From contig CM035806.1 in NCBI GenBank assembly GCA_020466095.1, forward strand, positions 111,631,401 to 111,695,400: a stretch of 64,000 bases of DNA. Direction: 5' to 3'. Positions 1,404 to 58,750 of this stretch are shown piece by piece. The notes below the pieces were generated by a model. It searched no databases. It had not been told where the DNA came from and saw only the letters and a program-made list of their open reading frames with translations. This DNA comes from Chlorops oryzae. Lineage: Eukaryota > Arthropoda > Insecta > Diptera > Chloropidae. Numbering within the stretch: the first letter of the stretch is position 1; the number at the start of each line of letters is the position of its first letter. The translations under genes and the position numbers were made by a program.

Positions 1404-2078
1404 TTATGTGCGAAGGATCCAAAAATCAAGAAATTTATAAAAAAAATAAAAAAAAAAAAAAATAAAAAATTTATGAAGCAAGGGGGCTTTAACAGCAGGG
1501 CTCAGCCCGGGTTTAAATTTGCTCTTTGTTTCAAAAATATTTTTTGTTGCGTTCTTTTTTTCTTGGAATGGGGGGACGAATGAGGGTTTAGGCTACCGCA
1601 AAGCATGCCATAGTAGCGGCTTTACGCGTGAGGTCTTTACATGAAACATACCAAGTGCTAAGGCATCCTTTACATGAATGTAAAACATGTAAAGTGGGTC
1701 TTACTCATTACACATAAAAATAAAAGGGGGCGGGGATTAGTTGGACTCGAACATAACAAAACGGACAAAAAAAAGAGGGTCCATGAGGAACCCTGGAAAA
1801 GGGCTCCAAAAAGCATTAAGCAATCCAGTTAGAAAAAAAAAAAAGGAAATATAATATATATTATTTTTTTTTTGTAATCTGAAGAAGAAAGAAAAAATTA
1901 ATAAATACATACTTACCAATTCACCAATAAATAACAAACAGACAAGTTAAGAGAAGATATTTTTTGTTTATCGCTTTATTGAAAATTTTCCTTTGAAATC
2001 TTTTGAACATAGAATTTTTTTTGGTTTTTACGTTTATTACAAGGCAGAAGATAATAAAGAAAACATTTAGTTCTATTA
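1404..2078 (+). other. 5' flank and leader of gypsy element E1; LTR not identified
   Basis: No gene is visible. The stretch is AT-rich, with a purine run AAAAGGGGGCGGGG near 1724-1737 followed by TTGGACTCGAACATAAC, which sits where a primer-binding site might be. I could not match this stretch to the 3' side of E1 (19.3-21.5 kb), so the left LTR is unproven; it may be truncated by the family F insertion or lie before the window. Confidence 0.35.
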
Positions 2079-2543
2079 ATGGAGAAGCCATCTAATACAG
2101 ATTTAAATTCACAATTATCATCCAATCAACGACTGACCAGATACCAGACTAAGCGACTGCAGCAATTGCCGGCTGAAAACACGTTACTCAGTGTAGCACC
2201 TTCCGCCGTAATACCGAGTACACAGCCACTCTGTAAAGACATAGAAAAATCTTCAGATTCAGCTAGCTTCCCAACAAAATTAGATCAAATTTGCAATATG
2301 TCAGAAAAGGAAGAACAAGAAGTAGGGAATAACCACCCTCAAGACCATGCCAGCCTTGATACCAATTATGAGCAGGAACTAGTTATAGAACAGCCGATTC
2401 AAATACGAATTGAAGAAAATAGTGATAATACTCAAGCTCCATTGCAACAACAACTAGCTAACCTTGCCCTAATGATGTCTACAAATAATAAATTCATGCA
2501 TGATTGTATGAAAATGGTGATGGAATTGCAAAAAAAGTTTTAA
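2079..2543 (+). pseudogene. E1 gag, N-terminal fragment (154 codons)
   Basis: An open frame starts at an ATG just downstream of the E1 leader. The product is polar and Gln/Asn/Glu-rich, consistent with the poorly conserved N-terminus of a Ty3/gypsy Gag. It has no RING finger, unlike the Gag of E2. It ends at a TAA, and the capsid homology continues in another frame from about 2600. The gag assignment rests on position and on the capsid-like segment that follows. Confidence 0.65.
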
Positions 2544-2579
2544 GAAGGTTTAAAACCGAGTAAATAATATAGAAAGCAG

Positions 2580-3719
2580 TGGTTCCCAACCTGACAGGCC
2601 TCCCCAATCTACCCCCTTAGGACAACCACCAGGAGAACAACCAAGATCCAATTCAAATGAGCAATTCCAGCACTCTTACATAAATGCACCAATAAGAATC
2701 AGTGAGATGGAAAGAATGAACAAATTTGATTTAAATAAATGGCAGGTGAAATTTGACGGCTCTAATAAAGATATGACTGTCGAAAGCTTCCTATTTAGAA
2801 TCGAAAAATTGGCAGAAACGCATGGCATCCCTTACAACAACTTATTCAACAATTTCCATTGCTTATTGAAAGACAATGCTGTTAAGTGGTATTGGAAGTT
2901 GTTGGAGGACAACAAACATAACCTCAGTTTTGGGTATTAAAATGTGCGAGAGAGTTGTTAAACTATTATAAAACAAATCAGACGGACTTTGAAATCATTA
3001 GAGAATTAGTTGAAAAAAAAAAACAAATGATAGGTGAATTATTCGAAGACTATTATACAGACATACATAATATTAGTTTCAGACTCCAAAATAGAATGGC
3101 TGAACGAGAATTAGTGGAGATCATTAAAAATAACTTACGTGGTCCACTTGCGACGATGATGTTTGCCAGCAACGCCTCCACCTTGTCTGAATTAAAGATG
3201 GACTGTAAAAAAGCAGAAAAAATTCTGCGAGAGTCCAGGACAAGACCCAAGCAGATTAGCGAGGTCCAGAGCGTAGAAACTGATTTGGATTTCAATATGC
3301 CATCCACATCCACTCAAAGCATAGAGGCTTTGCGTCCAAACCATCTCCCTGTGCAAAGAACAGAAACTAGAAGATTTAAAACTGAGTTTCCACAAAAACA
3401 AACACAAATCTCACCTTCACACAGTGCGATTTCCAATCTTCCAAAACAGCCAACTCTATGCCCATCCCCTTTCCACTTGAATTTGTGCTACACCTGTGGA
3501 ATGCCCGGTGATTTTTTCAAAAAGAACAAAATATTATCTGAAAATAGTTGTAAAAGTTCATTCCATGAGATGAAGTGTTTTCTATGCGGTCAGTCAGACT
3601 CATTTTGTGTGTATGAAGGTGGGTTAATTAAAAAAAACCCCAAGTTAAACACACAACTGGCAGAGGTGTCCGGAGTCCCGAGCCAACAGAACTCAAATCC
3701 GGGTACATCACCATTTTAA
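2580..3719 (+). pseudogene. E1 gag, capsid and degenerate zinc-knuckle part (frameshifted)
   Basis: Two frames cover this part (to 2940, then 2955-3719), so at least one frameshift lies near 2940. The first contains a capsid-like segment (FDGSNKDMTVESFLFRIEKL, then VKWYWKLL) matching the E2 Gag segment IDEFIYRVNIL and LQWFWRYH. The second continues the helical capsid and ends in a nucleocapsid region with CYTCGMPG and CFLCGQSD. The histidine and last cysteine of the CCHC knuckle are missing from both, so nucleic-acid binding is probably lost. Dead copy. Confidence 0.7.
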
Positions 3720-4678
3720 AGCGAACACCTCAACTCAAATTTGATGAGCGAGAGCAAAAAGAGCCTAAGTCGCTTCATCAGCGTAAAATCGAATATAATC
3801 AGGCTTGTGCTCGAATTTTTTGTGAGGTTGTTAGACAAGAAAAAAGGAACAAAAAAAAAATCCGAAAAATTAATAACTTAAGAGAGAAAAATAAAATTTA
3901 CAAGAAACTTAGAAATAATGTAGTATCATCAGTCTGCACAATCCAGGGAGATAACCGACTGTTTGCAAAGACTAAAGTAGGAGGAATAGAGATCGTGGCC
4001 TTGTTAGATTCCGGGGCAACTTCTAGCTGTATAGGTAAGGGAGGCATGAGTTTATTGGAAGACCACCCAAATAGGATTATTACATTAAAACAAAAAAATG
4101 TGAAAACGGCAGATGGTGGAGAAACTCCAATAACAGGCATCATCAGATTACCAGTTCACTGGAATGGTGAAGTGAAAGACTTGGATTTCTGCATTGTCCC
4201 TGCATTGCAACAGGACGTGTACTTCGGAATAGACTTTTGGTACACGTTTAAAATAAATCCACTCGGAATAAGCCAAAATAAAACAAGCAATGCAGAAATA
4301 GCGCAGGATTCCATATCAGAACTTGTCAACGATGAGCCTATGTCCATGATGAAACAACATGATCTGTCCAAAGAACAATTAGCTAGCTTAGAAAAAGTCA
4401 AATTGAAATTCCCATCATATGCGACGCTGGGTCTAGGAAAAACGCACCTGGAGGAGCATGTCGTTGAAGTCACTAATGACGGTATACCGATAAAACAACG
4501 TCACTATCCTGTGTCCCCAGTCATTCAAACAATGATTTTTGAAGAATTAGATAGGATGCTAGCGCTAGGGGTAATCGAGGAGTCCAAAATGCAGCCCAGC
4601 GCATGTGTCGACTTATGGATAAGGTCATCCCAGCTAAAATCAGAGAAAGGGTATTTGTTTACCTTGACGATCTATTAG
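3719..4678 (+). pseudogene. E1 pol part 1: aspartic protease and start of RT
   Basis: The open frame contains the retropepsin active site LLDSGATSSCIG (about 4001-4036) and then the start of reverse transcriptase (PIKQRHYPVSPVI, DRMLALGVIEES). Compared with the intact E2 Pol, roughly 100 RT residues are missing right after GVIEES, including the segment with the first catalytic Asp. The frame then changes. The protease looks complete but the RT cannot function. Confidence 0.85.
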
Positions 4679-5697
4679 TTTGTTCAAATGATTTCGAGGA
4701 ACATCTTGCACTATTAATGGATGTGGCTACTTGTTTAACAAAGGCCAAACTGACTATAAACATAGAAAAAAGCAAATTTTGTTTCCAAGAACTCAAATAC
4801 TTGGGATTTATTGTGGGCAATGGGCATATTCGTACTGACGACAGCAAAGTTGAAGCAGTAAAGAATTTTCCGATACCAAAAACACCGAAACAACTCCGCC
4901 GTTTTCTCGGAATGTCCGGTTGGTATCGGAAATTCATCAAAGACTACGCTACAGTAGCCGCACCATTGCACGATTGTCTTAAAAAGGATAAATTTAAAAA
5001 AATCAATTTAGACAAGAACGCGCTCATAGCTTTTGACCAGCTTAAACTAGCCATGATCCAAGCACCCGTGTTGATTAACCCAAATTTCAGTAAGCCTTTT
5101 TTCATACAATGTGATGCATCTAGCGAAGGTGTAGGTGGTGTTTTATTTCAACAGGACGAAGAAGGGAATGAGAGGCCCATCGCATATATGTCAACTAAGC
5201 TCAATAAAGCACAGAGAAATTACAGTGTGACAGAGTTAGAATGCTATGCCGCAATATTGTCAGTACAGAGATTCAGGCCATATGTGGAGGGATTACCATT
5301 CACGATAATAACGGACCATGCGAGCCTAAAGTGGTTAATGAACCAAAAGGAGCTATCTGGCAGATTGGCACGGTGGAGTTTGAAACTCCAGAGGTACGAC
5401 TTTTCCATCGAACATAGAAAAGGGTCACAAAATATAGTACCTGACACATTATCCAGAGCCCATATGGAGGAAATACAGATAATAAAACCAATTGAAGTTG
5501 ATTTAGAGTCCAATGAATTTCAGTCCCTAGAGTATAAAAATTTGATTCAAGAAGTCCAGGAGAATAAGGAAAAATTACCTGATCTTTGTATATCCGAAGG
5601 TTTCTCTATAAGAGGACACAGCCTTATAATGGTGACACCATTCAGGAAGATCGTGCATGGAAGCTTTGGGTACCAGAACCACTCCGTGCTGATTTGA
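4603..5697 (+). pseudogene. E1 pol part 2: RT palm/thumb and RNase H
   Basis: This frame carries the RT active-site box FVYLDDLLVCS, the thumb (RRFLGMSGWYRKF) and a Ty3/gypsy RNase H (CDASSEGVGGVLFQ, ELECYAAILSVQ, TDHASLKWLM, IVPDTLSRAH). It overlaps part 1 in a different frame because of the internal RT deletion and a frameshift. It ends at a stop after a second frame disruption near 5640, where integrase homology starts in the next frame. Confidence 0.85.
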
Positions 5698-5756
5698 CCA
5701 ATCAAGCACATTCCGCTGAAGCTGCAGGCCATGGGGGTATCCAAAAGACTCTACAC
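5640..5756 (+). pseudogene. E1 pol part 3: integrase N-terminus (His half of zinc domain)
   Basis: In a third frame the sequence reads WKLWVPEPLRADL then AHSAEAAGHGGIQKTLHR, matching the E2 segment WKLVVPDELR and CHNPPSAAHGGIAKTLER. These are the two His ligands of the integrase HHCC zinc domain. The frame breaks into unrelated AT-rich sequence at about 5757; the Cys half resumes at about 6394. Confidence 0.7.
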
Positions 5757-6393
5757 AGAGAAAAAAATCAACCAGAAAACTGGTTAAATCAAAAGGAAAA
5801 ACATACAAAACGGCTTCAACAAGGAATATTTTTATTTTAACAAGTCTTCTTGTTGGAAAAAATAAAGATTTTCCTTTTGAATCAACTATGTTTCAGGTTG
5901 AATTGACATGATAATTTTCAAAAATGAATTTAAATTTAAATTGTTGAACCAACCACGGACATAGTTGAAATGACAAGATATTTTTTAAAAAAATTCCAAA
6001 AAAAAAAATACCTATACAAGAAGAAATGTCAAAAAAAATTTAATTAACGTTCAAAGCAAATGGCCATAGAGCACTCTGCTGAACATGACCCAAAAAATAG
6101 CCATCGGATGGACTTCATCCGATTTCGTCACTCCGTTTTGGTGACTGCTTTCGCAATGCTTAAAAAGTTCTAATATGAATAACATATCTTATATGTCTTA
6201 TTTTATAAAACAAATGAGAATTATACCGAACGAAAAGAAATGTAATTAAACATATTTCCTTTCAATTCAACCAAAAATGTTGTTGACTCAACAATTTTCC
6301 TTTTGAAATTTTTGTTCTGCTCGAAAATCAAAAGGACTGTGAATAACAATGCGCCCTTTTAAAAAAATCATGGTTACGTTCGCTCAGTGTAGA
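5757..6393. mobile_element. AT-rich insertion in the E1 integrase
   Basis: About 640 bp of AT-rich sequence separate the His and Cys halves of the integrase zinc domain. Related motifs occur at both sides (AATCAAAAGGAAAAAC near 5788, TTTCCTTTTGAAATTTTTG near 6297) and in the middle, suggesting a non-autonomous element with internal inverted repeats. No clear target duplication was recognised and nothing in it looks coding. Confidence 0.45.
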
Positions 6394-6908
6394 AAGATTA
6401 AAATTGAGATATTATTGGCCGGGCATGGCAAAAGATGTACAGAATACAGTCAATAATTGTGAAATATGCAAGCAAAATAAATCCGGGAATTTTATTAAAA
6501 GACCATCCATGGGTGTGCAGCAGAAGACACTCAGGCCCTTTCAGCGGTTGTATGTTGACTTTATGGGGCCATATCCTAGGATGAAAGAGGGAAATGCCTT
6601 CATATTTGTATGTCTAGACCATTTTTCAAAATTCATTTTCCTTAAACCAATGCGCAAAGCGGTAACTACAGAAGTTGTTAAATATCTGGAGAGGGAAATT
6701 TTTCACATGTTTGGAGTACCGGAGTTCATCCATTCGGACAACGGGAAACAGTTCACGTCAGGAGCATTCAAAAATTTCTTAAATAGATATGGTGTCACTA
6801 ATGTGAAAACTGCTTTCTATTCGCCCCAAGCGAATGCATCAGAAAGAGTCAACCGCTCAGTATTGCAAATAATCAGGTCTTTCATTAAAAATGACCAACG
6901 CGCATGGG
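6394..6908 (+). pseudogene. E1 pol part 4: integrase zinc Cys pair and catalytic core
   Basis: Begins with LRYYWPGMAKDVQ, then CEICKQNKSG (C-x2-C) and the DDE core: Asp in YVDFMGPYP, Asp in HSDNGKQFTS and Glu in PQANASERVNRS, matching the E2 integrase. The frame is interrupted by the E2 LTR after RAWDL. The same frame continues beyond the right target duplication at 18810. Confidence 0.88.
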
Positions 6909-6912
6909 ACCT
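6909..6912. repeat. Left target-site duplication of E2 (ACCT)
   Basis: ACCT directly precedes the TGTAACGG end of the left LTR, and the same ACCT follows the right LTR at 18806-18809. A 4-bp duplication is usual for Ty3/gypsy integration. Counting only one copy restores the E1 integrase frame. Confidence 0.9.
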
Positions 6913-9012
6913 TGTAACGGAACTACTACCTCTACCTCTACTTGAGTCTGAAGCTGAGGCGCTCATCCATAGCAATTCACTCTGCATACATGATGTTGCT
7001 CTTGGTTAGCTCGTCTAGGGGTCGTTAGGTTTCTGCTATAGATGAACTTTCAATTTAGTTTTCTTTGTGTCTGTGGAACCGTATCCAGAAGAAAAATCCG
7101 TATGCAGAGGGTTAAGATCCAGTTACTTCAAAAAAATGAAAAAAAAAATTCCGAGAGCCCAAGCAAACGCAAACGTTTGCGATGACTATCAAGGCGCTGG
7201 GATTGCAGTTGTTGATTCCCGCGCGCTCTACACCCTCCCTCCATGCTAACGAATTGAAATCTAACTTCATTAGCCCAATATTTACCCCAGCCCATTACCT
7301 ACATTTCGTACGACCGAGAATAATTCACGCAATCATAACGACACCGGATTTACGTTTTCAACACATTATTAATACAAATATAATTCATTTTAACTTAAAC
7401 CATTGCTAATGATATCGCTATAAATTCTAGCTATCGAAATATCATATCCTAATTTTAAGCAAATTAAAATCAAGCCGAAGATCGATCAGCTGAGTTTTAG
7501 CAGTTCAACTTAATGAAAAAAAAAAAAAAAACAACCTCCACGTATTCACAATTACATTAAATAAACATCTTACTCACGTTTAACATTACAGCAACTCCTC
7601 TCACGATCAGCAGGCCTGTTGAGACGTTAAGAGCAGCGACGTTTACCTGCTAGAAAGTTAACAGAAACTTAACATTACTCTGTAAAGGAATGAGTCTACA
7701 TAGCAAGAAGTGCTTTACAATTTGAATTTGCCAAAAGTCGTGGCCCGAAAACTGATTTTGTTTAGAAAGCGAGTGCGAAGCCAAAATCAGTAATAATTAA
7801 AATTTAATTATTCTAACTCAGTCGTAGGCGAAGAGAGAGAAAAGTCATCAATCAAAATTCTACGATAATATAATATGCAAGCGCGTTTCTGTGTGAACTA
7901 GTCATTTTACGAGTTATATTATTTTAAGCTTTGGATTGAGCTGAACTTTATTTTATTGTATTGAGTTGCTCTTCTTCGTTCACTGAAATAATATAGGTTT
8001 TTTTTATTTTTCTTTTATTTTCTTTCCACTTTTCTCTCTTTCGTTCTACAAAAAAAATGCACCAAAACGTGTCTAAGAGGGGAATCCAGCTTTTACGAAG
8101 ATATCAGCGACTTGCTCTTTCCGATCTGTTACTCTGCGATTTGGCTCTTGTTCGTCTCCTGCATTTATCACTTTGCAATAGCACCCTACGTTCCGCATAG
8201 ACACAAAATTGAGATTAGAATCTGACGCTGTAATTTGAGTAATTTCAGGCTTACCTCCACGAGGGTTTTGTACTGACAAGGTTAGAGGAAAATTTGTCGG
8301 ATAGAAGTCAGAGACAGAGTTTATTGCCCAGCACATGAGATTCTCAAGATGGGTGTTAAAATATTCGACCATCCGATGGTGAGGTAGAGACACGTGTAGA
8401 CGCTAATGGCAGGTTATCGAACAAAATTTTAAACGGGATTAGGACGACTGATAGCGACTTAAAACTCCAAGGATATTTACCTTTAATGAAGCTATGATGG
8501 GTGTGAATTTTTCAGATAAAGATTTTCACTTCGCACGTTCCAGAGCGATCCGTTTCCTCACGTGGAAATTGGCCCTTATGGGTTCTTATTCCCCTCTTCT
8601 CCTATTTTCCTTTTTGCGTTTTATTTAGGATTTGGTATAAAACTTTTTTTTTTTCACTTCTTTTACGGATTATTAATTCGTTTTATGTTAAATTGAAAGT
8701 CTTTTAAATTTTTATTTTTTTTTTTCTTTAATTGCCGAACGAAGGTGATCGCTTAACATCGTCTTTCTACAGTGAGCGGAAATTGATCTTCTCTTGACTA
8801 AGCGTGCGGTTGATCGCGTTTAACAGAAAGCTTGCAGTGATGCATTTTTGTTTTTAACAGCCTGTACTGTTGTTAACAGATTATGTTATACTAATCAACT
8901 ATGCAACCTAGCATGGTTGCATTATCCTTCGGTCTGCGACAAACGAAATTAAATATTTCAAATAATTTTTTTTGTTTTTTTTTTTTTTGTTTTTGGTGAT
9001 TCAACCCTCACA
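6913..9012 (-). repeat. E2 3' LTR (left-hand copy)
   Basis: A 2100-bp terminal repeat, TG..CA in element orientation (TGTGAGGGTTGAATC at 9012, ending CCGTTACA at 6913). By eye it differs from the right copy by homopolymer lengths (for example the A run near 7515 and the T runs near 8650 and 8980) and at least one substitution (7609 C versus 17402 G). Short ORFs inside recur identically in both copies and are LTR sequence, not genes. Confidence 0.93.
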
Positions 9013-9078
9013 AAACAGTTACGAAATAAAGTGGGCTGTGATTTAGTAACTGGAAAAGGTTGAATTTCAGTTTTAAAT

Positions 9079-12000
9079 CTACCAGATGTCTTTACAGTGA
9101 TATGTGCCTTTATTCCCGGTTTCTAAGTCTTCTAACACATAGTCCGTATTGCCTTTTCGTTGAACTATTTTTGACCGTATACCTTTTGGGGCCAATTTGG
9201 CGTTGAAATTTTCTGCGAGTTTGCTTTGAACAAAATTTCTTCGAACAACCTCTTGCCCAATTTCAAATTTTCTCTCCCTCGAACGGAGGTTGTAAATTTT
9301 TACATTTTTTTCAAAAGCTCTTCTCATACTCTCTCTTATGTTTTCGCGCAGCAGTGTGAGTTCGTCTTCCCTATTAAGTCTAAGGGTACCTTCGGCAGCT
9401 AGTCCTAGATTCTTCAATACTTTATAGTCGTCGCCATGCGTAGCCATATACTGACCAAACAGGACATAATATGGGGAATTTTCTATTGATTGGTGGAAGC
9501 TATTTCTTAGTGAGCTGTTTATGTCGCTAAGGTATAAGTCCCACTCTCTTTGGTCTCTTCGAATATATGACCGTAATGCTTCGTTTATCGAGCGGTTCAC
9601 GCGCTCCGAGGCATTCGATTGGGGGGAATAAACCGCGGTTAGAATGTGTTCAATGCCATGATTTGATAGAAATTTTAGGAATTCCTTACTGCGGAACTGG
9701 CTTCCGTTATCCGAGACAAGTGATTCTGGGGTACCAAAGGTATCAAAAATGTGTTCTTTTAAAAATTCGATAATGAGATTTGAATTGAATCTTTTTAGCG
9801 GCTTAAGGAAACAAAATTTTGAAAAGTGATCTAAGACAATGAGAATACCGATATTCCCTTTTTTGGTTCTAGGGAGCGGGCCTATTAAGTCAACATAAAT
9901 ACGCTGAAAGGGACGCAACGTTTCCGGTAGCTGACTCATTGGGGGTCGTAGGCAATGGGTGGGAGTTTTGGAAGTTTTGCAAAGCTCACAGTTTTGGATG
10001 TAGGTTTTTACTTCTTTTACTTGCCCAGGCCAATAGAAATGCCTCCGAATTCTCTCTAGAGTTTTTGCGATACCACCATGCGCCGCTGAAGGAGGATTAT
10101 GGCAGGCGTATATTACTTGATTTCTAAGCTCATCTGGAACTACCAATTTCCAGTTGTCCGATTCGTCAGCTTTGCCTTCATCAAAGCGGTTTCTATGGTA
10201 TATAAATCGGTCAATTACTTTAAAATCAGGCAAGTCGGCTTCTTTAAACTTTTGCTTTAGCATTTTATAAGACTCGCTGTCAAAACTTTCAGAATTAAGG
10301 TCTATCAAAGGAATTGTTTCGCTATCTAGCTCTACAATTTCTTCGTCTTCGTGGGTACGTGAAAGGGCATCGGCAACCAGATTTTCACTAGCTTTACGAT
10401 GTTCTATAGAAAAATTGAACCCTTGTAGTTTAAGTGCCCATCTGGCTAACCGCCCACTTAAATCTTTTTGGCGCATTAGCCATTTGAGACTAGCATGGTC
10501 GGTCACTACTGTGAATTCATGACCCTCAACATAATGTCGGTACTTTTTGATAGCTAGAACGACTGCCAAGCATTCGAGTTCTGACACTGAATAGTTCCTT
10601 TGACACCTATTTAATTTGTGCGACATGTAAGCTATGGGCTTTTCGACGCCACTTTCATCCCGCTGCGCCAGGATGCCGCCCACCCCGAATTGACTTGCGT
10701 CACACAAAATTACGAACGGCTTTTCGTAATTCGGCTGTTCGAGAACTGGTGCCGTCGTGAGTTTTTCCTTCAAAGCTTCAAAAGCTTTTTGTGCTGCTGA
10801 ATTCCAGCAAAAGGACCGTTTCGTGGTTAAAAGTTCGGTTAGCGGAAACGATATTGAAGCATAATCGGACACAAATCTTCTGTACCATCCGGTCATCCCC
10901 AAAAACCGCCTAAGCTGCCTCTGAGTTTTTGGAACAGGGTATTCTGTGATAGCAGTAATTTTGTCAGGATCAACCATCAGGTTACCGTGCCCTACCAGAA
11001 AACCTAGGTATTTAACTTTTGCAAGGCAAAAGTCGCTTTTTTTTATATTGATTGTGAGGCCTGCTTTTCGTAAACCCGTTGCTACATCACGCAAATGCAT
11101 TAAATGATCGTCAAAAGTCTGCGAAAGGATCAATAGATCGTCGAGATACACAAAAACATGCGATTTTAAATTGTAAGGGATCACTTTGTCCATTAACTTG
11201 CACATTGTTTGCGGGGCGTTACATAACCCAAATGGCATTCTTTTGAATTCATATAATGGACGATTGGGCACAGTGAAAGCTGTTTTTGGTCGAGAATCTT
11301 GCGAAAGGTTTATTTGCCAAAAGGCGTCTTTCAAATCTATTTTTGAAATTATGTGTACAGCAGGCAAGCGAGCAATCAAACCATCAATATTAGGGATCGG
11401 GTAGGCATCCTTGACGGTTACTTCGTTTAGTCTGCGGGAGTCTAAACAGAAGCGGACTTTACCCGGCTTTACAATTAACACCCCTGGTGATGACCAAGGT
11501 GAATTTACGCATTCTTGAATAACTCCTAATGCCAGCATTCTGTCAATTTCTTTTACTAGTAATTTTTCCATCGCGGGCGAAATCGGGTAATATCGTTGCT
11601 TGATAGGATTCGCGTTTCCTGTATCGATTTGGTGTTCAACTAAATTGGTATTACCCAAGCCTTCTTTTTCAAAACACGGAAATGTGGATATGACTTCAGC
11701 GAGTTTGAAGCGTTGCTCTGGAGATAGTGGAAGTTCCTCTGTGGAGTACTCCTTGGAATCTATTTGCGATATTTCATTGCCAAAATTGATTCGAATATCA
11801 AAAAGGTTCCAAAAGTCCATTCCACAGATCAGATTATGTTTTATTGAGGGTACGATAAGAAAAGTTATGGAATTTTGTTTTCCGTTAAATCTTATAGAGA
11901 GAGAGACCGAACCCACGACCTGCTGTTTCTGGCCATCGGCAGTACGTACGTTGCCTTTAAACTTTACGACTTTTTCGGTTGATTTACTTAGAAATTTTTC

Positions 12001-12435
12001 AGCTAGATTGCCGCCTATGCAGCTCCTAGTCGCTCCACTGTCTAACAAAGATAGCAAGGTTTCCCCTTCGACTTCCACCTTAACGTACGGACGGACATCC
12101 GGATTTTTCTGAGCAAGAGAAGCTATGTGACAACGATTGAGAATTTTTCTTTGAGACCAAAATGTTCGCATTCTCTTCACTGAGCGATTCGGGTTCTTGT
12201 TGCATTTAAAATTAGTGTTAAATATTTGAGCACGTAATTTATTATACTCTTCTACACGGACATGGTATGGTTTGAGTAGTGTTGGCTTAGGATTATTCCT
12301 AATGGGGTCGATCATTTTGGGATTTTTCAAGATTTTTGCAGGGCTTATAGTCGAGGCTGGGATTTCGGATGCTCTTTCCCTTCGGATCGAACATCCGTCC
12401 TTGGGTTTTCCGGTTTCACGGAACATTTTGAGCAA
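9079..12435 (-). CDS. E2 Pol polyprotein: protease, RT, RNase H, integrase
   Basis: Open for 1118 codons without stops or frameshifts. Domains by residue: retropepsin LLDSGATRSCIG (about 130-141); RT about 275-540 with catalytic Asp in SKIDLKDAFW (367) and YLDD (430-433); RNase H about 575-690 (CDASQFGVGG, ELECLAVVLAI, TDHASLKWLM, VADALSR); integrase zinc domain H779, H786, C816, C819; catalytic D849, D909, E944; then the C-terminal domain to the stop just inside the 3' LTR. The frame is -1 relative to gag and overlaps it, so Pol is probably made by frameshifting and the first Met need not be used. All visible catalytic residues are present, but upstream gag is broken by a LINE. Confidence 0.95.
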   Translation of the reverse strand: MLKMFRETGKPKDGCSIRRERASEIPASTISPAKILKNPKMIDPIRNNPKPTLLKPYHVRVEEYNKLRAQIFNTNFKCNKNPNRSVKRMRTFWSQRKILNRCHIASLAQKNPDVRPYVKVEVEGETLLSLLDSGATRSCIGGNLAEKFLSKSTEKVVKFKGNVRTADGQKQQVVGSVSLSIRFNGKQNSITFLIVPSIKHNLICGMDFWNLFDIRINFGNEISQIDSKEYSTEELPLSPEQRFKLAEVISTFPCFEKEGLGNTNLVEHQIDTGNANPIKQRYYPISPAMEKLLVKEIDRMLALGVIQECVNSPWSSPGVLIVKPGKVRFCLDSRRLNEVTVKDAYPIPNIDGLIARLPAVHIISKIDLKDAFWQINLSQDSRPKTAFTVPNRPLYEFKRMPFGLCNAPQTMCKLMDKVIPYNLKSHVFVYLDDLLILSQTFDDHLMHLRDVATGLRKAGLTINIKKSDFCLAKVKYLGFLVGHGNLMVDPDKITAITEYPVPKTQRQLRRFLGMTGWYRRFVSDYASISFPLTELLTTKRSFCWNSAAQKAFEALKEKLTTAPVLEQPNYEKPFVILCDASQFGVGGILAQRDESGVEKPIAYMSHKLNRCQRNYSVSELECLAVVLAIKKYRHYVEGHEFTVVTDHASLKWLMRQKDLSGRLARWALKLQGFNFSIEHRKASENLVADALSRTHEDEEIVELDSETIPLIDLNSESFDSESYKMLKQKFKEADLPDFKVIDRFIYHRNRFDEGKADESDNWKLVVPDELRNQVIYACHNPPSAAHGGIAKTLERIRRHFYWPGQVKEVKTYIQNCELCKTSKTPTHCLRPPMSQLPETLRPFQRIYVDLIGPLPRTKKGNIGILIVLDHFSKFCFLKPLKRFNSNLIIEFLKEHIFDTFGTPESLVSDNGSQFRSKEFLKFLSNHGIEHILTAVYSPQSNASERVNRSINEALRSYIRRDQREWDLYLSDINSSLRNSFHQSIENSPYYVLFGQYMATHGDDYKVLKNLGLAAEGTLRLNREDELTLLRENIRESMRRAFEKNVKIYNLRSRERKFEIGQEVVRRNFVQSKLAENFNAKLAPKGIRSKIVQRKGNTDYVLEDLETGNKGTYHCKDIW

Positions 12436-13730
12436 TTAGGCTTATAAGTATCTATCGCCCCGCAGCCGTAACAAAATACTCTGCGTTGTTTCAAACAATC
12501 GTGGTATCGATGTCCTATTTCATCACAGTTCCAACATTTTAATTGGTTTGGGGCTATGGCGCATATTTCGCTTCTATTTTCAGAGGATACCGCATATTCA
12601 TCCGGCATTTGTACATCTAATGAAGCCAGCGCTTGCCGTCGTGTAGACGAGAGTCTGTATGAAGCGGCGTGTAGGTCAAAAAAAAATTTTTCATGTTTCC
12701 TAGCTTCCCGCCTTAAAACAGAAACGTCATGGATTGCCAAGTGCAAGAGCTCATGGCGAAGTTCAGGTTTCAGATTCCGAACGAGAATTTCTACTAAATC
12801 CGATTCTTGCACCGGACGTCGAAGTCTGTCGCTAATATTCATTATAGCATCACAAAAGTCATCGAAGGATTCCGTTGACTTTTGCTTCCGTCTGCGCATA
12901 TCATCTTTTATGTCAGAGTCAGTTGCATGATCTTTAAACTGACGCCGCATAGCGTCGCACAAGCTCGTCCAATCGAATTCTTCGGTTGATCGATGATAAC
13001 GCCAGAACCATTGGAGCGCTTTCCCTTCAAAAAGCGAATGAATGTGCTGACAAAGGACGGAAAAGTTTCCTTGTAAATGCGTGGTTGTCAAAATATTCAC
13101 ACGATATATAAATTCGTCAATCGAGATATCATTGACTGTGCCTTTATACTTTATTTGCCAATTCCTAATGAGGCTGGAAATTTTTTCTGAGAGTCTTGAT
13201 TCCATTTCGACATTTGAATAAGGCTCTGACGTTCGATTTGGCACAATTCCTGACAACCTCCGAGGATCTCGTGGCCAGTCTGTCGTATTTTGGGTTTGCA
13301 AACGATTGGTGTTTGAAGGCGAGGCAGCTTCTTCAGTTCTAGCAGATAGGTTTCTGAAAAGAGCTTGTAGCTCATTTGAAATTGAAGAAGTTATTTCGGT
13401 TCTAAAGTCAGATAATGATTCTGCAATAATTGCTTGAACTCTTTGTTCAGAGACAGCAGCAATTAAAGGAATGATTGGACGGTTTGAACTTGGACTTATA
13501 GAAGGATTGCTTGCAGGGGCAGTAGCTGATACTACTTGCCTTTGAGTTTGTGCATTTTGTCGTGTATTTGGTCTATCTCGTGGAATTGCTCCTCCCCCTC
13601 TACCTCTACTTGGCGAAAGCCTATAAGATGCATTAGAAGGCGCAGCGGTGTCCCGAGGACCGAAAAGCACCCTTGGATTACACGCACTTCTGCAAACAGG
13701 GCACGTTGGGTTTGTCTCTACCCATCTTTT
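12345..13730 (-). pseudogene. E2 Gag, main part: second half of RING-H2, capsid, zinc knuckles
   Basis: This is the 3' part of a gag gene interrupted by a LINE. It begins with RWVETNPTCPVCR, the last two zinc-ligand cysteines (C-x2-C) and W signature of a RING-H2 finger whose first half lies at 15715-15876. Then follow a Ser/Pro/Arg-rich linker with RGRGGG, the capsid (IDEFIYRVNIL, LQWFWRYH, RQFKDHATDSDIKDDM) and a nucleocapsid with one canonical CCHC knuckle (CWNCDEIGHRYHDC) plus a second with Thr in place of His (CYGCGAIDTYKPNC). It ends inside the start of pol. Apart from the LINE, the frame is open. Confidence 0.9.
12402..12408 (-). promoter_or_regulatory. Candidate -1 ribosomal frameshift site A AAC CCA
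   Basis: In the gag frame the codons read GAA AAC CCA AGG, so A AAC CCA fits the X XXY YYZ pattern in phase. Slipping back one base leads directly into the pol frame (AAG GAC). It lies within the 91-bp gag-pol overlap. A short stem (GGATG with CATCC) can form about 10 bases downstream. YYY = CCC is uncommon among known sites, so this is a candidate only. Confidence 0.5.
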
Positions 13731-15714
13731 CATTTCATTTCAATTCATTTCATCTACAGGGTTTCCCCTCACAGATTACAATCTTAACCTACATATTTAA
13801 ATAATTAATAAAAATAATAATAATATAAAAAATAAATAATTTATAAAAAATTCAAAAAATTCAAATGGTTCTATACTTAGCTAATACTACGAACAATTCA
13901 AATTTCAAAAATTCAACAAAAACAATTTATTTTTAAAAGATTGCCGAGCTTCGTCGAAGTGCAGGACACTGCATATACGATTGCAACGGAACAAACACCG
14001 ATACATTGGCTCATTCATGCCATAATTGGTTCTGTGAAATTCCAATGAAAAGAGCTCTCGTTCTCTGAGATGTCTCTCAGGAACATACCAAGGAACTAAG
14101 CTTAGCAGCTGTGGTGAATCAATTTTTGAGTCAATTATGTCTTTTATAAATAGCACATTTTGTGCTTGGCGACGGAATGAAAGAGTTTTTAAACCAAGGA
14201 GTTGAAGTCTAACATTGTAAGCAGGCATAGTGTCAAAGCTAAACATGTTGCGTAAAGCGAATTTAGTGAACCTCTTTTGAATGCGTTCAATCCTATTAGA
14301 ATGGGCCTCATAGACAGGCTCCCACACAATACTGGCATATTCTAGAACGGAGCGAATCAACGACGAATATATCACTTTTAATGTGTAGGGGTCTATAAAC
14401 TCCTTCGAATTTCTTTTCAAGAAGCCAAATTGTGAGCTGGCTTTACAGATTACATGATCGATATGACGCTGAAAACTGAGCTTATTATCAAAAAACACTC
14501 CAAGATCTTTAACCACAAAGTCCCTAATGCATGATGTATCGTCACTAAGTTTGTAGTCGAAAACAATATTTCTAAGTCTTCGGGAGTAGGATAAAACTTT
14601 ACATTTGGAAAGATTCAGAGATAGACCATTATTCTGGCACCACACCAATAGTTTCGCAATATCAAGTTGGAATCTGGCGCAATCATTAATGTCCCTAATC
14701 GCAACGAAAAGCTTCATATCGTCTGCATAGAGTAAATACTTACAGAATGAAAACTCAACAGCCACATCATTAATAAAAACCAAAAATAGTAAGGGACCTA
14801 GGTGACTGCCTTGAGGAACTCCCGAGTTAACATAAATTGTTTTAGAAAAATGATTGTCAATTTTAACTATCAATCTTCTACCACTAAGATAAGATCCGAT
14901 TCCAGTTTAGAAATTCAGAATGCAAACCTAACGCATTTAATTTGCTCAATAATATGGAATGATTCAGACTATCAAAAGCCTTCACAAAATCCGTATATAA
15001 AACATCAACCTGCAAGCCCTGTTCCAAGTATTTGATGCAATAATTTGTAAACAAAACAAGATTTGTATCCGTAGACCTTCCTGGAAAAAAGCCATGTTGT
15101 TCAGACTCAATATAGTTTTTGAATTCAGAAAATAGACGCTTGCTAATAATTTTGTCAAGAATTTTCGGCAAAACAGAAAGTTTTTGTAACAGGACGATAA
15201 TTATTCACCAGATATTTTTCTCCACCCTTGAAAATGGGAGATATAAATGCAAGTTTCCATTCATCTAGAAAAATGCCCGAAGAAAGAGACTTATTAAACA
15301 ATATCAATAAAGCTGGCGCCAGTACGGTGGCGCAGTTCTTGAAGACAGAGGGGGAAGCAAATCAAAACCTGCTCCTTTACTGCTATCTAAAGAACAGATA
15401 GTATTAAATACTTCGTCATAAGAGAGTACGATTTTACCAATATTGGCTACCTCTGGCAGATGAAAGGAATCATATGGAAAATCAATTGAGTTGCAGTCTT
15501 CGAAAATTGATCCAAAATGCTCAGCAAAAAGATCACAAATATCACTCTTACTACTAGCAGTTTTAGAACCCAAATTCATTGATCTAGGGAACCCTGAGGA
15601 CTTTCTTTTACAATTATAAAAAGTCCAGAAGGACTTTGGATTAGACTTAATATTGCTTTCCATGAGAAGAATATAGTTCTTATACAGAAAGTTCGACAGA
15701 AATTCAAATTCCCT
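13731..15714 (-). mobile_element. 5'-truncated Jockey/CR1-type LINE inserted in E2 gag
   Basis: Minus-strand RT fragments in order: 15304-15711 (NPKSFWTFYNCKRKSSGFP, KGAGFDLLPP), 14884-15171 (HGFFPGRSTDTN, DFVKAFDSLNHSILLSKL) and 13905-14873 (SGVPQGSHLGPLLFLVFIND, LLYADDMKLF). Frameshifts separate them and the endonuclease is absent, so it is a dead 5'-truncated copy. A 3' UTR of about 170 bp ends in an (ATGAA)-like tail next to gag. AGAAGA at the 5' junction and AAAAGA at the 3' junction look like a short target duplication. Joining the flanks keeps the gag frame. Confidence 0.85.
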
Positions 15715-15876
15715 TCTTCTGAGGCAATTGCCATGAAATAAATGTTTGCACACAGTTTCTATTCTATCCTGGGAATTCTCGAGCGCCGAACTACAAATTG
15801 TACATATTAAAGCGGACGATCGCGTGTCAGGAGCGGAATTTTCAGATGCCGTTCCCGGGCTACGAGTGAGCGGCAT
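15715..15876 (-). pseudogene. E2 Gag N-terminus: first half of a RING-H2 zinc finger
   Basis: The ATG at 15876 opens MPLTRSPGTASENS, followed by CTIC, 14 residues, then CKHLFHGNC: ligands C-x2-C, C-x-H, H-x2-H and H-x2-C. The LINE interrupts the codons right after this motif. The continuation at 13730 supplies ten residues and then CPVC, so the split protein carries all eight ligands in RING-H2 order and spacing. RING-H2 domains normally recruit ubiquitin-conjugating enzymes. I know of no such domain as a standard part of Ty3/gypsy Gag. This is the N-terminal gag start, about 820 bp downstream of the primer site. Confidence 0.88.
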
Positions 15877-16031
15877 TTTCAAAATTTACGGAAAATCAGT
15901 CGATAAAGATACAGTAACAGATTATAAGTGTACTAACTTTCTCTTCGCGTACGATTCTTAATAATAATAAGTAATAAAGGGATAGTATTTCACAATTCTT
16001 CACAAAAATTTATATAAATATTTAATAAGAT

Positions 16032-16069
<38 letters not shown>

Positions 16070-16216
16070 CGTCCTCAATTGATCGGTTGTCTCTAGAATT
16101 TCAATATGTAAGATTCGACTACTCTGTAGGTAACAGGCTAAGTATTATTCTTGTAATTATCATCGCAAACATCGCGTTCACAGGATTCACAATTGAAATT
16201 TAATTTTTATTTTAAA

Positions 16217-16250
<34 letters not shown>

Positions 16251-16697
16251 CTTTCATTCTCTTCTTTTGAAGTAACCAGAATTTTTGAGCAAAAGATTAA
16301 ATCCTTATTATTCCGAGCATTCACTTGTACCATACAAATTAAACGTTCTGCGGAAATCAATAAGAATTAATTAATCGTATTTCTATTCCAAGGCATGACA
16401 AAAATTTGTCATTCTTCCCACAGGTCATTGAAATGCGATTAACCAAAAGAATTAATGCAACTATTCGCATATTGCGCGGTCACTGCCTGATTCTATCCAA
16501 GCAATGCAGTTCCGAAAGCAAACGTGCAAATAATGATGTTAATATATGTTTTTTTTTTTTTTTCTCGAAACAACTAATTTCCGAGGAACACACAACAGTT
16601 TTTTTTTTTCATCCAGCTCGAAACTAGAAATTTCAATATTTTTGTAAAATTTTTACCAAATGTTTTTCGTGTGGTCCTGGAAATCGGTGGCCTCATT
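15877..16697 (-). other. E2 5' untranslated leader with two long A tracts
   Basis: Between the primer site and the gag ATG there is no ORF. In element orientation it contains two long A tracts (T runs on the plus strand near 16027-16066 and 16219-16250) and a further one near 16551-16563. A packaging or translation role is possible but cannot be read from the sequence. Confidence 0.6.
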
Positions 16698-16708
16698 GTT
16701 GGGCGCCA
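16698..16708 (-). promoter_or_regulatory. E2 primer-binding site (tRNA-Lys type)
   Basis: In element orientation TGGCGCCCAAC lies 7 bases inside the 5' LTR. This matches the 3' end of lysine tRNAs used as primers by several gypsy-type elements and retroviruses; the match is lost after 11 bases. It fixes the right-hand LTR as the 5' LTR. Confidence 0.8.
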
Positions 16709-16715
16709 TTTTCTC

Positions 16716-18805
16716 TGTAACGGAACTACTACCTCTACCTCTACTTGAGTCTGAAGCTGAGGCGCTCATCCATAGCAATTCACTCTGCATACATGATGTT
16801 GCTCTTGGTTAGCTCGTCTAGGGGTCGTTAGGTTTCTGCTATAGATGAACTTTCAATTTAGTTTTCTTTGTGTCTGTGGAACCGTATCCAGAAGAAAAAT
16901 CCGTATGCAGAGGGTTAAGATCCAGTTACTTCAAAAAAATGAAAAAAAAAATTCCGAGAGCCCAAGCAAACGCAAACGTTTGCGATGACTATCAAGGCGC
17001 TGGGATTGCAGTTGTTGATTCCCGCGCGCTCTACACCCTCCCTCCATGCTAACGAATTGAAATCTAACTTCATTAGCCCAATATTTACCCCAGCCCATTA
17101 CCTACATTTCGTACGACCGAGAATAATTCACGCAATCATAACGACACCGGATTTACGTTTTCAACACATTATTAATACAAATATAATTCATTTTAACTTA
17201 AACCATTGCTAATGATATCGCTATAAATTCTAGCTATCGAAATATCATATCCTAATTTTAAGCAAATTAAAATCAAGCCGAAGATCGATCAGCTGAGTTT
17301 TAGCAGTTCAACTTAATGAAAAAAAAAAAAACAACCTCCACGTATTCACAATTACATTAAATAAACATCTTACTCACGTTTAACATTACAGCAACTCCTC
17401 TCAGGATCAGCAGGCCTGTTGAGACGTTAAGAGCAGCGACGTTTACCTGCTAGAAAGTTAACAGAAACTTAACATTACTCTGTAAAGGAATGAGTCTACA
17501 TAGCAAGAAGTGCTTTACAATTTGAATTTGCCAAAAGTCGTGGCCCGAAAACTGATTTTGTTTAGAAAGCGAGTGCGAAGCCAAAATCAGTAATAATTAA
17601 AATTTAATTATTCTAACTCAGTCGTAGGCGAAGAGAGAGAAAAGTCATCAATCAAAATTCTACGATAATATAATATGCAAGCGCGTTTCTGTGTGAACTA
17701 GTCATTTTACGAGTTATATTATTTTAAGCTTTGGATTGAGCTGAACTTTATTTTATTGTATTGAGTTGCTCTTCTTCGTTCACTGAAATAATATAGGTTT
17801 TTTTTATTTTTCTTTTATTTTCTTTCCACTTTTCTCTCTTTCGTTCTACAAAAAAAATGCACCAAAACGTGTCTAAGAGGGGAATCCAGCTTTTACGAAG
17901 ATATCAGCGACTTGCTCTTTCCGATCTGTTACTCTGCGATTTGGCTCTTGTTCGTCTCCTGCATTTATCACTTTGCAATAGCACCCTACGTTCCGCATAG
18001 ACACAAAATTGAGATTAGAATCTGACGCTGTAATTTGAGTAATTTCAGGCTTACCTCCACGAGGGTTTTGTACTGACAAGGTTAGAGGAAAATTTGTCGG
18101 ATAGAAGTCAGAGACAGAGTTTATTGCCCAGCACATGAGATTCTCAAGATGGGTGTTAAAATATTCGACCATCCGATGGTGAGGTAGAGACACGTGTAGA
18201 CGCTAATGGCAGGTTATCGAACAAAATTTTAAACGGGATTAGGACGACTGATAGCGACTTAAAACTCCAAGGATATTTACCTTTAATGAAGCTATGATGG
18301 GTGTGAATTTTTCAGATAAAGATTTTCACTTCGCACGTTCCAGAGCGATCCGTTTCCTCACGTGGAAATTGGCCCTTATGGGTTCTTATTCCCCTCTTCT
18401 CCTATTTTCCTTTTTGCGTTTTATTTAGGATTTGGTATAAAACTTTTTTTTTTCACTTCTTTTACGGATTATTAATTCGTTTTATGTTAAATTGAAAGTC
18501 TTTTAAATTTTTATTTTTTTTTTTCTTTAATTGCCGAACGAAGGTGATCGCTTAACATCGTCTTTCTACAGTGAGCGGAAATTGATCTTCTCTTGACTAA
18601 GCGTGCGGTTGATCGCGTTTAACAGAAAGCTTGCAGTGATGCATTTTTGTTTTTAACAGCCTGTACTGTTGTTAACAGATTATGTTATACTAATCAACTA
18701 TGCAACCTAGCATGGTTGCATTATCCTTCGGTCTGCGACAAACGAAATTAAATATTTCAAATAATTTTTTGTTTTTTTTTTGTTTTTGGTGATTCAACCC
18801 TCACA
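16716..18805 (-). repeat. E2 5' LTR (right-hand copy)
   Basis: A 2090-bp repeat of 6913-9012, starting TGTGAGGG in element orientation. It should contain the E2 promoter and polyadenylation signals; I could not place them with confidence. It is followed by the ACCT duplication at 18806-18809. Confidence 0.93.
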
Positions 18806-18809
18806 ACCT
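18806..18809. repeat. Right target-site duplication of E2 (ACCT)
   Basis: Matches the ACCT at 6909-6912 and is followed by the continuation of the E1 integrase frame. Confidence 0.9.
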
Positions 18810-19290
18810 ACATGTGAGCGAGGCCGCTTTCGCGTTGCGTAGTGCCTTACATAGCGCAATAAATCTAGAACCACATTATGTGCTATTCGGAATTCATATG
18901 ATGCAACATGGTGCATCCTATAAAATCAGCAGGCAATTGCAAACATTAGGCCAGGAAGATTTTGTAATTAACAATCAAACGGACAAACAACAGTTAATAC
19001 AGGATTGGGTTTTGAAAGATCTAAAAAAGTCACATGATAAAGGTACAAAAACGTACAATTTGCGTTGCAGAGATGTAAAATTTAAAGAAGGGCAGGTTGT
19101 GTTTAGGAAAAATTTCAGACAGAGCAACTAAGTAGAAGGTTATAATGCCAAACTTGCACCTACAAATGTGAAGTCAGTAATTTTGAGATGTACAGGAAAT
19201 ACAGGTATAGGAAATTCACTATATGGATTCGCAAACAATGCCGGAAAAAGTATAGGTGTCTATCACGCAAAGAATATATTTGCAGTATGA
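18810..19290 (+). pseudogene. E1 pol part 5: integrase C-terminus after the E2 insertion
   Basis: In the frame left at 6908 the sequence continues SEAAFALRSALHSAINLEP, then HYVLFGIHMMQHGASYK, matching the E2 segment YYVLFGQYMATHGDDYK. One in-frame TAA at 19129-19131 is followed by further homology (YNAKLAPTNVKS, GVYHAKNIFAV) up to a TGA at about 19290. The single stop is a decay lesion independent of the E2 insertion. Confidence 0.85.
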
Positions 19291-19970
19291 AACATAATAA
19301 TATTCTTTCTTTTCGTTCTCAAAAAAAAAAAAAAAAAAAGGACATCATTTTACCAAGTTAAGCATATCCTGTTAGCCCGACTGATGTTCAGGGCGTGGTC
19401 GAAGCCACACGTTGATACTAGGATTTGATAGAATTTGAAAAAAAAATAAAAATTAGTTAATAAGAAGACCAGAGGAATTTTTTTTACCATTCATTTATTC
19501 GATTCATGTAACAAGAAGATGGGAAATATACCAATATATACACGTATACATGTATGTGCATGAATGAAGATACAGGCACAAATATGAATATGAGAAAATT
19601 TTTTTTTGCGGAATCGTTCCATGCCGGCATTTCTCCATGAGGATATATTTATGTCATCGACGATTCCGAGCCTGTTACGTGACATGCCTGTTAAAGAAAA
19701 GAAAAATGTGGGTTTAAAAAGTTCAATGAGAGAATAGAAAGAAAAGTGTAAAATATGAATTTTTTTAAATATAAAAAAAAACAAAATTTAAATTTAAAAA
19801 AAAAATTCTAAGTGTTTCTACATATGGCAAGTGACGACCTAATCAAGTAAATACGTACCACTGACAAACACATCTACACTTTATGAACATATATACACGC
19901 CACGAATACATATACACATTTACATACATAATATCACACCTTAATCTACTCCTAGAAAGACACAAAAATC
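19291..19970 (+). other. E1 spacer between pol and the third ORF
   Basis: 680 bp, AT-rich, with A runs near 19321 and 19440 and T runs near 19478 and 19600. No ORF with recognisable similarity was seen. A splice acceptor for a subgenomic mRNA of the next ORF could lie here but is not evident. Confidence 0.4.
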
Positions 19971-24677: not shown

Positions 24678-25061
24678 GCTGCGAGCTTTGAAAAAAAATG
24701 TAACTTGCGTAATTGCGTCGGCGCGTTGGATGGCAAACACGTCGCAATAAAGGCACCACGAAACAGCGATAGTCTTTTGTATAACTACAAGGTAATAAAT
24801 TAAAACTTTGTGAATTTGTCGATGAACTTTATATATATATATATGTCGTAGATACGTCGTGGTTGTGACTTTTCATAAGACCGTGGCATCGCCAAATGGC
24901 CTCGCCTTCTGAGAACTGGGTGTCGCAACAGAAAGAAAAATAAAATAAAAGAGATCGAAGTAGGCATACTTATGAATTTACAAAAAATAAGAAGTATTAA
25001 GGGAAGAGAAATGATTGGAAAAATATACTTTTTGAATATATTCGAAAAAGAAACTTGTGTG

Positions 25062-25817
25062 CATGTAGGACTGTAGGTCTAACTGTCGACGTCGAAAAGC
25101 CTCTGCCGCGATGGGGATATACACCATTAGGCAGGCATAGGAAATTCAACAAATTGGGGATATTCACCAAAAAGCTACCAACAAAAACCTTAAGCAGGAA
25201 TAGGAAATTCAACAAATTCGAGAAATTCACCAGAAAGCTACCAACAACAATACGGGCAGACAAAAAGTGGCACTATGATGCCACTTGCAAGAAAATTATA
25301 AAAGAAACACGGCGTCGGCTCGGTTTTTATATTGCTTGAAAAGTTCATAATTGAAACTTTAATAAATATATTACGATATGTTTTTGCTTAATGTGCGCGA
25401 ATGTTTTCATTTTGTAATAAATTAACATACATTTTTGACTACGGCTACGAATTTAATTGTACATAGAATTTAGCATTTTTGCTGAAATAGTGTGATCAAA
25501 AAGTTATGTGGACAGGGTAGGACTAAAAAAACAATTTATATTTCTCCTTGATATTGCGATTCCTTGATTATTTTTATGTTTTTCAAGCTTTTCATATGAT
25601 TTTATGAGTTTGGTAGATATTTTATATGTAATGTACTCGAAAATCTCCCAAAATTAAAAAGAAAAGTGGCAATGCATTTCACCACAGCAGAGCTAAAGAT
25701 TTCGCTGCCATAGCGTGCTTCTCTTTTCCTCATGCTATATGCCTATGTTGAAGCAGCGTAGCTCTAACACATTGTAGGGATTAGGAAGAAGAAGAGTTAG
25801 ACCTATAGTCCTATATG
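25062..25817. mobile_element. Family F P-like MITE, complete copy 2 (756 bp)
   Basis: Starts CATGTAGGACTGTAGGTC and ends GACCTATAGTCCTATATG, with 8-bp duplications CTTGTGTG (25054-25061, 25818-25825). It lies in the intron between Harbinger exons c and d. An internal direct repeat of about 50-60 bp (GGAAATTCAACAAATT..., AAGCTACCAACAA) occurs twice near the left end. CA..TG termini and 8-bp duplications fit the P or hAT superfamilies; the CATG start favours P. Confidence 0.9.
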
Positions 25818-50808: not shown

Positions 50809-51307
50809 CAGCGTTGCCGCTTTGGCTAAATTTAGCCAAAATTGGCTATTTTTATTTTTAAAAAACGTTTTTGGCTATTTGGCGATTTTTTATTTGATAT
50901 GGCCATTTTTATTTTGCTGAAAGCTGTATTATATTTCCCCTAAATTTTGCTCTCGTAAGGTAGATTTTCTGTGCTATAAAACGATATTGAGTTTTCTTTG
51001 TCTTGTGGCAGCACTTTTACTTGAAAATGAACAGAAGTATTGAAAACGCATGGAACAAAGTCAGGTGAACGTAGACGTACGTTTGGATTTCGATAGCCAA
51101 TATGGATAAGTAAGTTTTAAGTCATTTTAATATTAGTCCATTAATTTGCACTTTTAATATGTAGATTCTTAAAACGCTCACGAAAGGGAGAAGAAAATGA
51201 GTCTAGTAGCAAGTAAGAATTATTTATATATTAAATTTGTTTTGGCTATTTTGGCTATTTTTTTCTTTACCTGTGGCTATTTTTAAAATTTGGTCGCGGC
51301 AACGCTG
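50809..51307. mobile_element. hAT MITE (CAGCGTTGCCGC ends)
   Basis: Terminal repeats CAGCGTTGCCGC and GCGGCAACGCTG with 8-bp duplications TGTAGGTC (50801-50808, 51308-51315). 499 bp, with TTGGCTATTT motifs near both ends. Removing it restores the family F sequence. Confidence 0.92.
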
Positions 51308-58719: not shown

Positions 58720-58750
58720 GTTGCCAGTACCCCCGAAGCTTCAATTGGAG

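Follow-up and report, generated by a model that had tools for sequence, protein, structure and literature searches.

Element E2 and its surroundings

The 64-kb window of Chlorops oryzae DNA analysed here contains a Ty3/gypsy retrotransposon of 11.9 kb, element E2, which is read from the minus strand and carries a LINE within its gag gene. Its features, in the direction of transcription, are as follows.

6913..18805, minus strand: element E2, LINE included (LTR pair, open reading frames, Pfam, direct repeat)
16716..18805, minus strand: 5' LTR, about 2.09 kb
16698..16708, minus strand: primer-binding-site-like stretch TGGCGCCCAAC, just inside the 5' LTR (from the sequence)
15304..15885, minus strand: open frame with the gag N-terminus, start codon at 15874-15876, running into the LINE
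15724..15804, minus strand: first part of the RING-H2, ligands 1-6 (CTIC ... CKHLFHGNC; Pfam)
13728..15715, minus strand: LINE insertion, edges within about 10 bases (RVT_1 at E 4.1e-15, junctions read)
13689..13724, minus strand: second part of the RING-H2, with Trp, ligands 7-8 (CPVC) and then Arg
12345..13739, minus strand: remainder of gag, with linker, helix, capsid and zinc knuckles (Pfam, homologues, model of relative P0001)
9079..12435, minus strand: pol, with protease, reverse transcriptase, RNase H and integrase (open reading frames, Pfam)
6913..9012, minus strand: 3' LTR, about 2.10 kb

The element has the defining parts of a Ty3/gypsy (Metaviridae) LTR retrotransposon, namely two LTRs, a target duplication, gag, and a pol whose Pfam domains follow the Ty3/gypsy order PR-RT-RH-IN. 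The pol frame encodes 1,118 aa and overlaps gag in a different frame. No env ORF was found between the end of pol at 9079 and the start of the 3' LTR at 9012. The stretch TGGCGCCCAAC is presumably a primer-binding site of the Lys-tRNA type. The alignment of the two LTRs spans 2101 columns, with one mismatch and ten gap positions (99.48% identity), and judged from this identity the copy is young. A 4-bp direct repeat, ACCT, read from the sequence, borders the element at 6909-6912 and 18806-18809. Both LTRs also contain an identical open frame of 109 aa (8073-8402 and 17873-18202, minus strand), for which a homologue search (query 17876-18172) and a Pfam scan were empty.

Element E2 is inserted within an older related element, E1. 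E1 is of the same kind and occupies about 2058-6912 and 18810-19300, split by the E2 insertion; its gag is broken, with a first open frame that has no RING, and pieces of it are 55% identical to E2 over 348 residues of pol and 29% over 135 residues of gag. Elsewhere in the window lie an inverted repeat with 585-nt arms (1-585 and 655-1239, 93% complementary, 69 nt apart), two long frames, 356 and 1213 aa in length, which by eye resemble LINE ORF1 and ORF2 (31003-35702, plus strand), and a repeated frame with the motif GLTVDVEKPLP (25001-25339, 51210-51512 and 58714-59040 on the plus strand, 61371-61679 on the minus strand), the copies of which probably belong to another repeat family.

A RING-H2 domain divided by a LINE

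The initial annotation had described a gag that begins with a RING-H2 zinc finger and is cut in two within that finger by a LINE, and both parts of this description held up. The first gag half matches Pfam zf-RING_11 at E 7.1e-7, above cut-off; its match to zf-RING_2 (E 2.7e-5) lies below cut-off, which is no surprise for a domain that has been cut. The last two ligands are found beyond the LINE, in the second part of the RING, RWVETNPTCPVCR, which opens the ORF 13739-12345 (minus strand). Between them the two separated halves hold all eight C3H2C3 ligands in RING-H2 order and at normal spacing. The six-ligand pattern and the Trp plus two-ligand pattern each occur once in the six frames of the 64-kb window, and neither was matched in 20 mononucleotide shuffles of it. 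A comparison of the first 46 Gag residues with PDB sequences gave no significant match (best E 0.66, to RING ligases). The annotation had also pointed out that the two halves share a reading frame; this carries little weight, because the intervening LINE contains stops and frame changes.

The second ORF carries the rest of the Gag. Pfam finds Retrotrans_gag at E 2e-9, above cut-off, Ty3_capsid at 13157-12741 (E 4.3e-6, just under cut-off) and a weak zinc-knuckle match (E 0.023); the knuckles lie at 12539-12426, a region that matches solved nucleocapsids.

The LINE has a 3' tail of ATGAA-like units and, from the short frames that remain, is 5'-truncated; the ORF of its reverse transcriptase has been interrupted and now spans several frames. 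No clear target duplication was seen by eye at the junctions. The LINE hit element E2 after E2's own insertion and, since it splits the RING, a whole RING is no longer made by the window copy.

Relatives with and without the RING

Of the uninterrupted relatives, proposed in the annotation as a check, the nearest full-length ones do carry the whole domain at the same place. The homologue search used the second gag piece as query, which holds just the end of the RING, and returned 126 proteins, 120 of them listed. The four best relatives, P0001-P0004, are full-length Gags of 505-546 aa that are 41-47% identical to the query over 99-100% of its length, and all four start with a complete RING. When 15 distant members were aligned (A2) and used as a broader query, 14 matches came back, among them seven new Gags (P0121-P0127) and three already known. 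Four others were set aside: P0128, P0129 and P0131 carry RING domains and cover 8-10% of the query, and P0130 has other Pfam domains. With P0128-P0131 left out, all counts of relatives rest on 127 Gags.

A complete N-terminal RING is present in 64 of the 127. The pattern that picks out these 64 itself demands all eight ligands; it allows 8-14 residues between ligands 6 and 7, yet the spacing there is 10 in every one of them, and between ligands 2 and 3 it is 13-18. Gags that lack the RING, which the annotation had named as evidence against its proposal, also exist: 38 of the 127 have the family's N-terminal start (MPLTRSxENL-like, a pattern made for this analysis) and no RING, and they are nested among the RING bearers. 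The N-terminus of the other 25 could not be judged. A search of the 63 Gags outside the RING set with the domain profile and for N-terminal cysteines found no partly decayed RING except in P0119, which starts inside the domain. The RING profile, likewise suggested as a check, bore the domain out as well, with zf-RING_2 found in 43 and Retrotrans_gag in 49 of 51 aligned relatives. The six relatives named by organism among the 120 listed come from six fly species, Drosophila ficusphila (P0059), Lucilia sericata, Rhagoletis pomonella, Eurosta solidaginis, Musca autumnalis and Lucilia cuprina, and all have the RING; the L. cuprina protein is titled a RING-H2 finger protein in its own record.

Gags without a detected RING do not carry late-domain motifs in its place. 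In a comparison of the 64 RING Gags with the 63 in which no RING was detected (including the 25 with an unjudged N-terminus), PPxY occurs in 2 vs 0, PTAP-like motifs (P[ST]AP) in 2 vs 2 and YPxL in 4 vs 0. In the linker, a Thr-Arg pair (P0001 residues 101-102) is at least 90% conserved over the 51 aligned Gags, as are some capsid residues, within surroundings that are otherwise disordered; the dipeptide TR falls within 110 residues past the RING in 57 of the 64 RING Gags.

Predicted structure and fold matches

Structure models drew on two alignments, A1 with 51 of the 120 listed relatives and A3 with 38 of the 127. A predicted N-terminal structure had been suggested as a further check, and the AF2 model of P0001 does contain a RING, at about residues 21-70, with block means of pLDDT 87-97. 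The chain before it and the linker after it are modelled as disordered. A long helix follows at residues 142-178 (block means 82, 91, 90, and 67 at its end), then the capsid (85-98) and the knuckles (74-90). The pTM is 0.41, so the relative arrangement of these domains carries no prediction.

Foldseek with the P0001 model gave 14 matches at E 0.001 or better. The capsid matches dArc1, dArc2 and rat Arc; the RING matches TRAF6, RING1B-PCGF5, LNX1, LNX2 and RNF38, and for some of these the solved structure includes an E2 enzyme; RNF125 and TRIM21 follow at 1.6e-3 to 3.7e-3. A profile built on 51 Gags, of which 43 have a RING, matched 168 PDB sequences with E values no higher than 0.01. The best 60 of the 168 are headed by RNF4 (1.6e-15, one chain with two matched stretches), RLIM (2.8e-12) and Arkadia (3.7e-12), and also include BMI-1, which alone is not known to act as a ligase.

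Relation to known elements and proteins

The initial annotation assumed that a Ty3/gypsy Gag normally has capsid and knuckles only. This needs amending, as one paper (PMC3630058) already reports a RING for the Osvaldo lineage. An Isis-like element of Calliphora vicina, placed there in the Gypsy Osvaldo lineage, has a RING finger in a 531-aa Gag, LTRs of 2.57 kb, a 4-bp target duplication, a 1,137-aa pol and no env (PMC3630058). Element E2 shares with it the RING Gag, the 4-bp duplication and the absence of env; as far as the descriptions go, E2 differs in its LTRs (2.1 vs 2.57 kb) and in the length of pol (1,118 vs 1,137 aa). The C. vicina Gag is one ORF, whereas that of E2 is split by the LINE. 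E2 is probably an Osvaldo-type Ty3/gypsy element, an assignment made by its likeness to the published Isis-like element in the RING of its Gag, the length of its LTRs, the 4-bp duplication, the size of pol and the lack of env.

Within that lineage the RING is a trait of some members, and E2 has it as well. In the same source, Osvaldo of Drosophila buzzatii has a Gag with a RING finger and is thus like E2, by description, whereas Isis of D. buzzatii, of the same lineage, is described with an env domain and a Gag without a RING (PMC3630058); we would expect Isis to group with the Gags that lack a RING in the present set. The OSVALDO/ULYSSES group is divided into Osvaldo, Ulysses, Isis, Osiris and Isis-like clades in a survey that covered 20 Drosophila species (PMC5408442). 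In a 2026 paper on Drosophila virilis, a figure legend on its transposons lists a RING domain without naming the element there (PMC12910113). A RING finger is also marked in a C. vicina Pao element in a legend of PMC3630058, and more than one LTR lineage may have one.

The presence of a RING in such Gags is thus already known, and E2 is a further copy of a little-studied domain. The accessible portion of the open-licence literature yielded no functional test of a Gag RING, nor a description of the repeated absences and of the division between full E2-enzyme faces and bare zinc folds set out below.

Three kinds of cellular protein invite comparison. The RING-H2 E3 ligases RLIM, Arkadia/RNF111 and RNF38 have the eight ligands and the Ile, Trp, Pro and Arg that are seen in the two window halves, and they resemble the relatives of E2 by profile and fold matches; unlike them, the E2-family RING is fused to a retrotransposon capsid and is known from sequence and models. 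The domesticated Ty3/gypsy Gags of flies, dArc1 and dArc2, share the capsid fold of P0001 but are host genes and are not known to have an N-terminal RING. TRIM5-type restriction factors carry a RING and a helix on a single polypeptide that comes into contact with a capsid. Their likeness to the E2-family Gag is one of analogy alone, since TRIM5 is made by the host and binds the capsid of an invader, whereas in the E2 family the RING belongs to the capsid protein itself.

Residues that face the ubiquitin-conjugating enzyme

The residues expected of an active RING E3 ligase are a hydrophobic one before ligand 2, the Trp, a Pro after ligand 7 and an Arg or Lys after ligand 8. The two RING pieces of the window have Ile, Trp, Pro and Arg at these sites. 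The importance of the Trp is illustrated by Arkadia, in which its change to Arg abolished E3 function, according to PMC8905620.

The relatives were compared on a tree of capsid and knuckles with 103 rows, rooted at its midpoint, from which the 25 relatives with an unjudged N-terminus were left out. In the half that contains the window, all 15 RING rows have the hydrophobic residue, Trp and Pro, and 12 have Arg or Lys after ligand 8. Among the 49 RING rows of the other half, Trp is found in 3, the hydrophobic residue in 29, Pro in 45 and Arg or Lys in 21; the usual-place Trp is therefore missing from 46 that have kept their zinc ligands. All four residues occur together in 12 of 15 rows vs 3 of 49. 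An earlier tree puts the midpoint on a neighbouring branch, so that P0058, P0061, P0065, P0067 and P0111 change sides; under that root the Trp counts are 10 of 10 vs 8 of 54, and the contrast persists.

The reading that we favour, and consider somewhat better than an even bet, is that in the lineage of the window the Gag RING acts as an E3 ubiquitin ligase tethered to the capsid. In its favour are the complete RINGs of 64 relatives with their constant ligand 6-7 spacing, the lack of half-decayed copies, the full E2-enzyme face in the window's half, the confident model with its profile and fold matches to solved RINGs, the parallel divergence of RING and capsid, and the Arkadia mutant. The domain, its conservation and absences, the E2-facing residues and the predicted fold are treated here as observations, and the E3 activity, the clustering, the targets and the equation of absences with losses as interpretation. 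The family Gag would from early on have had a RING-H2 ahead of a long helix, followed by a capsid of the Ty3/Arc type and by zinc knuckles. The RING would bind a host E2 enzyme through its isoleucine, tryptophan and proline, with the Arg after the last cysteine as linchpin. Through this link to the capsid, many RINGs would come together on each particle as it assembles, and ubiquitination would then fall on proteins at the Gag shell, either Gag itself or a bound host factor.

The most serious alternative, which we regard as possible but rather unlikely, is that the RING is a structural zinc module in all lineages, aiding Gag oligomerisation or the binding of RNA or a partner, with no ligase activity. 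The other half of the tree speaks for it: eight ligands persist there where the Trp has gone, and the RING of P0073, from the Trp-less group, is still confidently predicted (residues 21-60, block means of pLDDT 92-96) and scores above cut-off for zf-RING_2. The fold can thus be maintained without the standard E2-enzyme face. The 28 rows of that half without Arg or Lys, the 20 without the hydrophobic residue and the low identity of the RING outside its ligands (21%, near the 17% of the linker) likewise count against E3 activity, as do the 38 RING-less relatives and the match to BMI-1. However, a purely structural role would not need the hydrophobic residue, Trp and Pro together, and this trio is complete in all 15 rows of the window's half even though non-ligand positions vary across the family.

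History of the RING

In the 103-row tree, rows with a RING occur to either side of the midpoint and of the deep forks. The RING-less rows fall in three nested places, a 34-row clade (support 97/93), the group P0019/P0025/P0035 (100/100) and the single row P0050, so that RING presence changes three times, two of these changes being forced by starred branches. P0026 and P0094, labelled RING-less in the earlier tree, probably start at inner methionines and were left out of this one. A constraint that unites all 38 RING-less rows is rejected (AU p 6e-55). Of two further sets, picked after the tree had been inspected, the 37 rows without P0050 held together are not rejected (AU p 0.31), and the 34-row clade with P0050, without P0019/P0025/P0035, is rejected (p 7e-74). 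These outcomes argue for two or three changes. Losses are preferred over gains because RING rows occupy both sides of deep forks, the root being the midpoint, and on that basis the RING was probably lost two or three times in the family.

Median pairwise identity among the 64 RING Gags is 36% for the RING and 21% for the RING without its ligands; the corresponding value is 17% in both linker and helix, and rises to 43% in the capsid and 59% in the knuckles. The zinc fold is thus strongly held and its surface changes fast. Identity of the RING outside its ligands tracks that of the capsid (r 0.70, reached in 0 of 2000 permutations). As the RING is spread over both sides of the tree and diverges with the capsid, it most likely belonged to the family from an early stage and was passed down together with the capsid, and was not captured repeatedly.

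These data bear on three further explanations. That the RING was captured long ago, has persisted through inertia alone and is by now in decay would fit its absence from two or three separate places in the tree and its rapid change outside the ligands; it is improbable given that the domain is either complete or absent, the one half-decayed example among 127 Gags being the start-cut P0119. The annotation had entertained acquisition from a host gene; the view that E2 took up a host RING recently, or that a host RING exon merely lies beside a retrotransposon, draws on a general likeness to host E3 RINGs and on nothing more, and is made highly improbable by the constant position and spacing of the domain in relatives across deep forks, including those from six fly species. 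Chance cysteines and histidines can hardly be credited, given the Pfam match of the first half by itself, the empty shuffles and the whole domain in relatives.

Possible role of the Gag RING

The recurrence of complete absence among the relatives suggests that the RING has an accessory, host-dependent role and is not an essential step of assembly. The annotation's proposal that it may ubiquitinate host factors or the capsid is a possible one; between the two targets the odds appear about even, with a slight lean towards a host protein. Extended further, the capsid of a fly retrotransposon clade would be a ubiquitin ligase that is activated by assembly and directed against a host factor, dropped once that fight was over, and ligase-dead in the sister clade; we offer this as a speculation that is more probably wrong than right, and by a good distance.

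Relatives with a complete RING, with a tryptophan-less one and with none provide a natural comparison set for the role of the domain. If the RING is active, these Gags would bring their own ubiquitin ligase rather than borrow one.
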